From: Acidobacteriota bacterium
GTDB taxonomy: Bacteria > Acidobacteriota > Terriglobia > Terriglobales > Acidobacteriaceae
Direction: 5' to 3'
Assembly (NCBI GenBank): GCA_023265315.1
Contig: JAHFUA010000008.1
Coordinates: 1-43,998 of the forward strand
DNA length: 43,998 bases
Shown here: positions 19,389 through 29,126 of the stretch, piece by piece
How the letters are laid out: the number at the start of each line of letters is the position of its first letter
Position numbering within the stretch: the first letter of the stretch is position 1
Made by a program: the position numbers and the translations under genes
The notes under the pieces: model-generated
What the model was told of the DNA's origin: nothing
Seen by the model: only the letters and a program-made list of their open reading frames with translations
The model's database searches: none

Positions 19389-20440
19389 AGATTCTCGAAA
19401 CTCCTTAAGGCCAGGCCCACAGCCACCGCCAGTTGGCCCGGATTCTGGTCCACCAGGGCGGTGGTCTGGCCCAGCGGCAGCGCCACCCGCTGGAAGGGGT
19501 TGAGCAGCTCCACCGGGAGGGAGAACTCCTGGCGCAGCGCCTCGATCAGTCCCGGCACCTTGGACGAGCCCCCGGCCAGGTAAATGCGCTCGATGTGCTC
19601 GCCCGGCGCCGTGGCGCGGAAGAAGTCGAAGGTCTTCTGAATCTCCAGCACGATGATCTCGGTGACCTGCTGCAGGATGGGGGCTTTGGCATCCGCGCTG
19701 ACCGTGCCCACCTGCTGGCCCAGCTTGAGCGCCTCGGCGTCGTCGAAGCTGAGGTCAAGCTCCTTCTGCAGCGAGTCGGTGTACTGATTGCCGCCCACGC
19801 TCACGTCGCGCGTGAACAGCGGCGTTACGCCCTTCACGATGTTGATGTTCATTACGCTGGCGCCCAGATTCAGAAGGGCCACCGTCGCCCCCGGCGCCGG
19901 ATCGTAGTTGTACTCATAACAGTTCTGCAGCGCGAAGGCGTCGATGTCCACGATAGCCGGGCTCCTGCCCGCCAGCGAGAGCACGTTGGTGTAGTTCAGG
20001 ATCTTGTCCTTCTTGACCGCCACCAGCAGCACGTCCATCTGCGGGCCGCTGAGGTCCTCGGAGAGGATCTGGAAGTCGATGTTGACGTCGCTGATGTCGA
20101 AGGGAATGTGCTGCGCCGCCTCCGTCCCAATGTGCTCGGCCAGTTCCTGCTCGCTCATGGTGGGGATCGAGATCTTCTTCACGATCACCGAGTGCCCGCT
20201 CACCGAGGTGGCCACCAGCTTGGACTTCATGATGTTCTCGGTGAAAATCTTGCTGATGGCGCTGGAGACCGAGCCCGAATCCACGATCATCGAGTCCACC
20301 ACGATGTCGCTGGCCAGAGGCTCGAAGCCGATATGCGTCACCTCGATCTGCCCCTTGCTCTTCTTCAGCTCGATGGCCTTGATGCTGCTGGATCCGATGT
20401 CCAGCCCCACGACGTTTTTCGCTGCTCCGATTCCGAACAT
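19385..20440 (-). CDS. pilM: Type IV pilus assembly ATPase-like protein PilM
   Basis: 351 residues, actin-like fold, cytoplasmic. Phosphate motif VVGLDIGSSSIKAIELKKSK at the N-terminus, then TEAAQHIPFDISDVNIDFQI, and the second phosphate and adenosine motifs (ATVALLNLGASVMNINIVKG; ERIYLAGGSSKVPGLIEAL). It binds the PilN N-terminus and anchors the platform to the motor ATPases. An AGAGG site precedes the ATG. It follows the HTH gene by 10 bases. Confidence 0.95.
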   Translation of the reverse strand: MFGIGAAKNVVGLDIGSSSIKAIELKKSKGQIEVTHIGFEPLASDIVVDSMIVDSGSVSSAISKIFTENIMKSKLVATSVSGHSVIVKKISIPTMSEQELAEHIGTEAAQHIPFDISDVNIDFQILSEDLSGPQMDVLLVAVKKDKILNYTNVLSLAGRSPAIVDIDAFALQNCYEYNYDPAPGATVALLNLGASVMNINIVKGVTPLFTRDVSVGGNQYTDSLQKELDLSFDDAEALKLGQQVGTVSADAKAPILQQVTEIIVLEIQKTFDFFRATAPGEHIERIYLAGGSSKVPGLIEALRQEFSLPVELLNPFQRVALPLGQTTALVDQNPGQLAVAVGLALRSFENL

Positions 20441-21104: not shown

Positions 21105-22139
21105 TCAGCTTGCGCCTCCCCTCCAAGCTACCGCCACGGCGCACTTCTGAAGCGGCAACTCACGCATCATCGCCTGGAATTCGCGGCAGTCGAGCGACTG
21201 CGGACCGTCCGATAAAGCCCGCTCCGGATTGGGATGGACCTCGATGATCAGCCCATCCGCGCCCACCGCGATGGCCGCCTTCGAGAGCGGCGCGATCAAG
21301 CTGCGCCGTCCGGTGCCGTGCGAAGGGTCGGCGATCACCGGCAGGTGCGAAAGTTCCTTGGCCAGGGCGACGGCCGCCAGATCGATCGTGTTGCGCATCT
21401 CAGTCTCGAAGGTCTTGATGCCGCGCTCGCAGAGCACCACGTTGGGGTTGCCGCCGGTGAGCAGATACTCGGCCGCCAGCAGCCACTCCTTCACCGTGGC
21501 CGAGGGCCCGCGCTTGAGAAGCACCGGTTTGTCGATGGTCGCGAGGCGCCGCAGCAAGGCGAAGTTCTGCATATTCCGCGCACCCACCTGGAGCATGTCG
21601 GCGCGCTCGCAGATGGTGTCCACATCCTCCGTGCTCATCACCTCGGTGACCACGGGCAGGCCGGTCTCGCGCCGCGCTTCCGCCAGCAGATCGAGCGCTT
21701 CCTGGCCCAGACCCTGGAAATCGTAGGGAGACGTGCGCGGTTTGTAAGCGCCTCCGCGCAGCATGCGCGCGCCGGCGCTCTTCACCGCACGCGCTGTAGT
21801 TAGGAGCTGCTCGCGGGATTCCACCGAGCACGGCCCGGCGATAACCACCACCGGTTCGCCATTGCCGATGCGCACCCCTCCGACTTTGACCACCGTCCCG
21901 CCGGGCCGCACCTGGCGGCTCACCAGCTTGTAGGGCTGGGCGATGGCGACGACGTTATCCACGCCGGGCGCCGCCTGCAGGGCCTCGAGTTCATGGCGGC
22001 GGCCGTTGCTGCCCACGGCGGCGACGATGGTGCGCTCCACGCCGCGGGTGATGTGCGCCTGATACCCGGCCTCGCGGATGCGCTCGATGACATGCTCGAT
22101 CTGCTCCTCGGTTGCTCCGTCCTTCATGTTCACGATCAT
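21105..22139 (-). CDS. aroF: 3-deoxy-7-phosphoheptulonate (DAHP) synthase, type I-beta with N-terminal regulatory domain
   Basis: 344 residues; condenses phosphoenolpyruvate and erythrose 4-phosphate, the committed step to aromatic amino acids. An N-terminal ferredoxin-like domain ([20 protein letters not shown] to about residue 70), as in Thermotoga-type enzymes where it mediates inhibition by Tyr/Phe, precedes the barrel. The barrel shows [53 protein letters not shown], and [16 protein letters not shown]. An AAGGAG lies 9 bases before the ATG. A REPIN-like element and, beyond it, an aromatic leader-peptide attenuator lie upstream on the same strand. It is a monocistronic unit here. Confidence 0.96.
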
Positions 22140-22168
22140 GACCCGTCTCCTTAAGGAAAGTCGCTAAT

Positions 22169-22387
22169 GGTTTCGGAGGGGCATGGCTTTAGCCATGCCG
22201 AAATCCATTCTTCGAGTTGTCATCCCGAGGACGCGCGAAGCGAGCTTGCGAGGTGAGCGCAACGAGGGATCTACAGTCTTCGCAGAACCTCGCGCCGCGC
22301 TCCCTCATTCCGTTCAGTCGCGCTTGCTCGGTCTGACAATCCGGTAACACCCTTCCGGCGCGGCTGAAGCCGCGCCCCTCCGAAACC
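22169..22387. mobile_element. REPIN-like element with 20-bp terminal inverted repeats, in the aroF leader
   Basis: A 219-bp non-coding element. The ends are GGTTTCGGAGGGGCATGGCT and, inverted, GGTTTCGGAGGGGCGCGGCT (18 of 20 identical). Each end contains an 8-4-8 palindrome (22180-22199 and 22357-22376). The interior carries CATCCCGAG...GAGGGATCT-type sequence and its partial inverse. No ORF is plausible. It sits between the attenuator and the aroF start codon. No target-site duplication was recognised. Confidence 0.65.
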
Positions 22388-22419
22388 TATTCGTGCTTCC
22401 AGACAAATGACTTCTGGAT

Positions 22420-22456
22420 AAATCAAAAGCCGCGATCCTTGAGAGATCGCGGCTTT
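22420..22456 (-). terminator. Intrinsic terminator of the aroF leader
   Basis: On the minus strand AAAGCCGCGATC and GATCGCGGCTTT form a perfect 12-bp stem around a 7-base loop, followed by TTGATTT. The symmetry allows some activity in either direction, but the U-richer side favours the minus strand. Confidence 0.75.
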
Positions 22457-22483
22457 GGGCTTGCTGAACTTGTGCGCCTTACA

Positions 22484-22570
22484 TCAGGCTGGCACGCACG
22501 GAGCGCCCGCGCCGCTACTCTCGAACCAGTAGCGGTAGCTAAAGCCGGCGCTAAATCGGGTGGCGTGCAT
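22484..22570 (-). CDS. 28-residue aromatic-rich leader peptide upstream of aroF
   Basis: ATG at 22570, TGA at 22486-22484. Aromatic residues are Phe6, Phe10, Tyr12, Tyr14, Trp15 and Phe16 (6 of 28), with the core FSYRYWFESS; the tail is Gly/Ala-rich and ends PCVPA. It starts about 3 bases after the predicted transcription start and has no ribosome binding site, so it would be translated from a nearly leaderless mRNA. Clustering of all three aromatic amino acids directly upstream of the DAHP synthase gene, and before a terminator, is the hallmark of an attenuation leader peptide. Confidence 0.65.
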   Translation of the reverse strand: MHATRFSAGFSYRYWFESSGAGAPCVPA

Positions 22571-22579
22571 GAAGCTGAA

Positions 22580-22609
22580 ACTATATGCAGAACCGGCGGG
22601 GCGCGTCAA
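22580..22609 (-). promoter_or_regulatory. Promoter of the aroF leader
   Basis: Minus-strand TTGACG (22609-22604), 18-base spacer, TATAGT (22585-22580). Only 9 bases separate the -10 from the leader ATG. Confidence 0.6.
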
Positions 22610-28975: not shown

Positions 28976-29126
28976 GGATTTCGGAAGGGCACGGCTTCAG
29001 CCGTGCCCTTTCAGCCCCAAGATCCCTCGCTCGCGCTCAGTCGCAGGGCTCACTCGCGCTTCGCTCGGGATGACACTCCTAAAATGCCTGCTCCGGCGCG
29101 GCTGAAGCCGCGCCCCCTCCGAAACC
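28976..29126. mobile_element. REPIN-like element between mreD and mrdA
   Basis: A 151-bp non-coding element with ends GGATTTCGGAAGGGC and, inverted, GGTTTCGGAGGGGGC, each running into an 8-4-8 palindrome (28988-29007 and 29095-29114). Outside these ends the flanks also match in inverted order (TCTCACAAAT versus TCTCACAGAT). The interior has CCAAGATCCCTCGC...CGCTCGGGATGAC sequence. It is closely related to the element at 22169-22387. Confidence 0.65.

Follow-up and report, generated by a model that had tools for sequence, protein, structure and literature searches.

The window, i.e. the whole stretch of 43,998 nucleotides of acidobacterial DNA that was analysed, contains a DAHP synthase gene, aroF, preceded on the same strand by a short reading frame rich in aromatic codons and a predicted intrinsic terminator (Table 1). 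The promoter in front of the reading frame, TTGACG-N18-TATAGT, shows 10 of 12 consensus matches with an 18-bp spacer, and is the only sigma-70-like site found between positions 20000 and 25000. The encoded peptide MHATRFSAGFSYRYWFESSGAGAPCVPA contains Phe6, Phe10, Tyr12, Tyr14, Trp15, and Phe16, that is, three Phe, two Tyr and one Trp within codons 6–16. Segment CCGCTACT (22535–22528) forms a perfect 8-bp hairpin (1:2) with AGTAGCGG (22519–22512), which lies inside segment 2. An initial annotation of this DNA had described the promoter, the reading frame starting 9 bases after the -10 box, the aromatic codons, the hairpin with its 5' arm in the Tyr-Arg-Tyr-Trp codons, and the DAHP synthase gene aroF as the next one on the strand; all of these were recovered at the same positions. 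The terminator with its T-rich tail is likewise present, but it comprises 13 pairs rather than 12 and begins 27 rather than 28 bases past the leader stop codon.

Table 1. Features of the aroF upstream region (window coordinates)
Feature	Position	Strand	Remarks
-35 box TTGACG	22604..22609	-	promoter scan
-10 box TATAGT	22580..22585	-	ends 9 nt before the leader ATG
Leader peptide ORF MHATRFSAGFSYRYWFESSGAGAPCVPA	22484..22570	-	ATG at 22570, 28 codons
Segment 1 CCGCTACT	22528..22535	-	within the Tyr12-Arg-Tyr14-Trp15 codons; partner of segment 2
Segment 2 CGAGAGTAGCGGCGCGGGC	22505..22523	-	partner of segment 1 or of the terminator 5' arm (antiterminator)
Intrinsic terminator, segments 3 and 4, AAAGCCGCGATCTctcaaGGATCGCGGCTTT then TGATTTAT	22426..22456	-	13 pairs, T-rich tail
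Terminator-aroF spacer	22140..22425	-	REP-like palindromes (cores near 22362 and 22185)
aroF, DAHP synthase (PRK08673 type)	21105..22139	-	344 aa; putative regulated gene

The gap between terminator and aroF, which the initial annotation had not remarked on, amounts to 286–287 bases, compared to a median of 34 in relatives, and is lengthened by two REP-like palindromes. Its size would leave room for another promoter, but the promoter scan found none there, and its 3' end is formed by the Shine-Dalgarno-like motif AAGGAG ahead of aroF. REP-like palindromes flank the element on both sides (22185, 22362, 22669, 22705, 22733) and recur at 28993, 29100, 31372, and 36379; GGCTTTAGCC, GGCTGAAGCC, and GCCTTCAGGC are examples of their cores. 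Folding of the whole leader gave a z value of -2.65. When both strands of the window were scanned, only one place combined an aromatic-rich ORF with a strong terminator behind it, the hairpins at two other places with aromatic ORFs being weak. An Rfam search of the locus detected no known leader, T-box or riboswitch.

For the comparison with related genomes, a leader was defined as an ORF in which four or more residues out of ten are aromatic and which has a terminator at most 90 nt further on and lies no more than 350 nt from aroF. Terminators were called by folding; a perfect-stem finder missed imperfect stems. The sample comprised 115 orthologues from all over the class, with one genome per species, and 87 of them had an aromatic ORF plus terminator directly upstream; the species are related and the counts hence not independent. 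The leader of the window begins slightly past the 350-nt limit and is therefore not among the 87. About 14 of the 115 orthologues lacked a recognisable leader. Dinucleotide shuffles of the orthologous upstream regions produced the combination in 2 of 345 cases, while it was found in none of 64 AroF relatives from other phyla, at none of 18 AroF paralogue loci, and in 9 of 11 named acidobacterial GTDB records. Among the named genomes with a leader are Bryobacterales MAGs and Candidatus Sulfopaludibacter (L037, L107, L069); for a MAG with the label Terriglobia (L044), the case is weaker. Orthologous regions also share the 1:2 hairpin and the predicted near-leaderless start discussed below, so that the comparison on which the initial annotation had staked its interpretation came out in its favour.

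The genome of the window codes for three DAHP synthases of the PRK08673 family. A leader precedes only the aroF gene of Table 1, and none was found before the two AroF paralogues, pheA or trpE of the same genome; the element thus is not a general regulon signal in this organism. Searches of 61 genomes with a covariance model of the attenuator usually returned one copy per genome. One genome has, in addition to the copy before aroF, a second strong match (G148:C496:356-430, minus strand, E 2.8e-11). Forty regions from the other classes of the phylum mostly lacked an aromatic leader; the candidates among them are MPAFPVGPSFSPFVPSYYWYSWYWFSPRG (L241), MNSRFYFYYFGAFTTGP (L248), and MTVRYFYCRAYFKTDP (L254), of which L248 and L254, but not L241, have a strong terminator. 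Longer leaders that end like PYSSFGSFSSLSWYYRGRRAD and have an ambiguous start codon make up a sub-family of five loci (L021, L038, L152, L156, L158).

Of 93 leaders, 57 carry a -10-like hexamer whose last base lies 8–10 nt upstream of the start codon, as compared to about two expected from shuffles, and matches to the -35 box are moderately enriched (22 of 60, versus 9 expected). Shine-Dalgarno-like motifs precede 3 of 94 leader starts but 78 of 94 aroF starts. The -10 spacing and the scarcity of Shine-Dalgarno motifs suggest that translation of the leader probably takes place on a nearly leaderless mRNA; judging from the usual distance between -10 box and start site, transcription probably begins 0–3 nt before the leader ATG.

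As judged from the sequence, the predicted pairings 1:2, 2:3, and 3:4 are mutually exclusive. They include a predicted antiterminator, composed of segment 2 and the 5' arm of the terminator, which the initial annotation had not identified and which matters because attenuation would fail without one. In 90 leaders, duplex formation between the region from ORF start to terminator and the terminator 5' arm gave a mean z of -2.64, with 88% of values below -1; the corresponding 2:3 duplex of the window, involving segment 2 CGAGAGTAGCGGCGCGGGC, has an energy of -19.1 kcal/mol (z -2.66). When only contiguous pairs were counted, the antiterminator of the window was not significant (p 0.41), the test being weak across leaders (median p 0.17). 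Since the antiterminator helix contains a bulged C, the analysis also drew on duplex energies and an alignment. In one large group, GAGTGGcGTTGG, located at or just past the stop codon, pairs with CCAGCCCACTC to form 12 pairs with one bulged C. Among 34 aligned leaders, 93.6% of the cells of this helix are paired, two-sided changes occur at four pairs, and the covariation score is higher than in any of 500 shuffles and drops sharply when the alignment is slid by one column. The terminator helix also covaries.

In 84 of the 90 leaders, segment 1 shares bases with one or more aromatic codons. Despite its perfect 8-bp hairpin, the 1:2 pairing of the window is no better than that of shuffles (z +0.87), and across leaders this protector hairpin is statistically weaker than the 2:3 pairing. 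Compared to synonymous recodings of the same peptides, the leaders are more structured (mean z -1.96, 92% below 0), a value to which species base composition may contribute, as the recodings drew on pooled codon usage.

Among 94 distinct leader peptides, Phe is present in 94, Tyr in 91, Trp in 85, and all three in 82. Total aromatic content was a selection criterion and is not itself evidence, but no ORF was required to contain each of the three amino acids. The residues form clusters such as SFRFWYYF, FSYRYWFE, SFSYRFWHFA, FTYRYYYAS, and FGFTYRFWG, whereas the rest of the peptide drifts freely, which is the pattern the initial annotation had looked to for confirmation. The last aromatic codon typically lies four codons ahead of the stop, which fits a stalled ribosome keeping segment 2 free. 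The attenuator could nevertheless respond mainly to one or two amino acids, for example Tyr and Trp as encoded in segment 1, the remaining aromatic codons being filler. In the window, the codons best placed to free segment 2 are indeed Tyr12, Tyr14, and Trp15, with Phe6 and Phe10 further upstream, and the Phe-Tyr-Phe peptide AroR of Corynebacterium glutamicum is reported to be responsive to Phe limitation (PMC11802643). However, the near-constant occurrence of each of the three residues in the 94 peptides, and clusters of the SFRFWYYF type that place all three side by side just before segment 2, argue for sensing of all three, and we consider such a narrower specificity rather unlikely, though worth keeping in mind.

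In two lineages (L136–L174 together with L216–L223, and L224–L226), aroF is located directly behind pheA in a pheA-aroF operon. No aromatic ORF was found directly before aroF in these lineages, and the expectation that the leader would then precede pheA was borne out, a predicted leader being found there in all 11 further cases fetched (e.g. MSTYNEFFAFTYRFPYRGKRAGETRAENIRK and MTSSMHRTGFSFAFRFFTGGAG). Trp occurs in 4 of these 11 leaders versus 85 of the 94 distinct peptides counted above (p = 0.0001, for cases that stem from two lineages and are not independent), as expected if the codons track the needs of the operon. The position of the leader also bears on the idea that its translation regulates without sensing amino acids, or that the terminated leader gives rise to a small RNA or peptide acting in trans, as described for the leader peptide peTrpL and the attenuator RNA rnTrpL of Sinorhizobium meliloti (PMC7298713). 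That the element stays with whichever gene heads the aroF operon, including its shift to the front of pheA, and that the peptides drift widely outside the aromatic residues, favours action in cis and makes this idea improbable; a further role in trans, beside the cis action, may exist. A chance ORF in front of the ordinary terminator of the upstream RNase G/E family gene, which runs in the same direction as far as 22812 in surroundings where REP-like palindromes are abundant, is a most improbable explanation in view of the class-wide conservation, which is decisive, the covariation of the antiterminator, and the spacing of the start codons.

We are highly confident that the element is a ribosome-mediated transcription attenuator of aroF of the classical type. 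Like trp- and phe-type attenuators, it comprises an aromatic ORF, a terminator before the first structural gene, a mutually exclusive antiterminator, and a 1:2 hairpin; the attenuator proposed in the initial annotation thus gains support from a conserved ORF, terminator and hairpin, and from the covarying antiterminator. RNA polymerase would start no more than about three bases away from the leader ATG; a ribosome would load onto the almost leaderless end and translate the 28-codon leader. With plentiful charged Phe, Tyr and Trp tRNAs, it would reach the stop codon and mask segment 2, allowing the 3:4 terminator to form ahead of aroF. If any one of the three charged tRNAs were short, the ribosome would stall on the aromatic codons in segment 1; covering of segment 1 would free segment 2 for the 2:3 pairing, resulting in read-through into aroF. 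The sequence itself shows the parts, how far they are conserved, the exclusive pairings and the near-leaderless spacing, whereas the transcript start, translation, stalling and read-through are steps that we infer. A single peptide would in this way combine the signals from all three end products for control of the first committed enzyme. Since the sensor ORF and the terminator are conserved throughout the class, the bacterium probably raises aroF expression when any of Phe, Tyr or Trp is scarce. We think it likely that the element constitutes a class-wide, leaderless tri-aromatic attenuator that works as an OR gate for shortage of Phe, Tyr or Trp where the shikimate pathway begins, with codons re-tuned before the pheA-aroF operon.

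Ribosome-mediated attenuation as such is a textbook mechanism. The enterobacterial leaders trpL, pheL, hisL, and ilvL carry stall codons in segment 1 and form exclusive 1:2, 2:3, and 3:4 pairs. The acidobacterial element shares this four-segment architecture, whereas the enterobacterial leaders sense one amino acid (or the branched-chain set) and have Shine-Dalgarno sites. The nearest precedent is the aroR-aroF attenuator of C. glutamicum, a device of this kind that acts on the same enzyme, with a leader peptide encoded before the DAHP synthase gene aroF. Its leader reportedly has a leaderless start, as do other attenuator leaders of C. glutamicum. As reported in PMC11802643 with reference to Neshat et al. 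2014, the peptide is characterized by Phe-Tyr-Phe without Trp (the aroF leader peptide is also covered in PMC4046766); it belongs to an unrelated phylum, and the comparison with the acidobacterial leader concerns the kind of device rather than the sequence. The uORFC-13-1 motif before aroF, with 24 representatives confined to Acholeplasma, likewise combines a leader ORF with a terminator (PMC8632094), but it contains at least one Phe codon only and has a ribosome binding site, whereas the acidobacterial leaders are mostly devoid of Shine-Dalgarno motifs.

Leader peptides translated from leaderless mRNAs, with terminators or hairpins downstream, have been described for Streptomyces attenuators (PMC8079986), and the trpL peptide of S. 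meliloti is also produced from a leaderless mRNA (PMC7298713). These leaders serve other operons, namely trp, leu, ilv, thr and others. The earlier remark that a nearly leaderless sensor of all three aromatic amino acids would be unusual has to be partly tempered, as leaderless leaders occur commonly in Actinobacteria and have been described for Sinorhizobium, and C. glutamicum has a Phe/Tyr attenuator of aroF. In a 2005 study, no conserved RNA regulatory structure was detected ahead of phenylalanine or tyrosine operons of Actinobacteria (PMC1262725).

In some Firmicutes, T-boxes attenuate the same gene via uncharged tRNA, which is bound directly, without a leader peptide; of eight Bacillota loci tested, four (L056, L060, L072, L096) have an Rfam T-box ahead of aroF. 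The T-box covariance model did not match the acidobacterial aroF leaders, and none of the Rfam leader models (Trp_leader, Phe_leader, His_leader, Leu_leader etc.) exceeded its gathering score; one Leu_leader match, at L149, reached 22 bits against a cut-off of 50.

Our search of the open-access literature turned up no description of amino-acid leader-peptide attenuators from Acidobacteriota, and a survey from 2010 lists almost no predicted acidobacterial attenuator with an associated function (PMC2965389). Within the literature searched, the phylum, the presence of Trp in the same peptide with Phe and Tyr, the class-wide conservation, and the probable near-leaderless start as a rule are new. 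The leader peptide would represent a third solution for control of this step, beside the T-boxes of Firmicutes and the repressors of E. coli. The about 100 leaders form a natural series on how codon choice sets sensing, and provide material for an Rfam family and for studies of leaderless mRNA translation. Acidobacteriota are dominant soil bacteria whose regulation is scarcely characterised, and the element offers a concrete, class-wide candidate for control over the first step of their aromatic amino acid synthesis; if the proposed mechanism is true, ribosome-mediated attenuation would be an established regulatory mode in this phylum.
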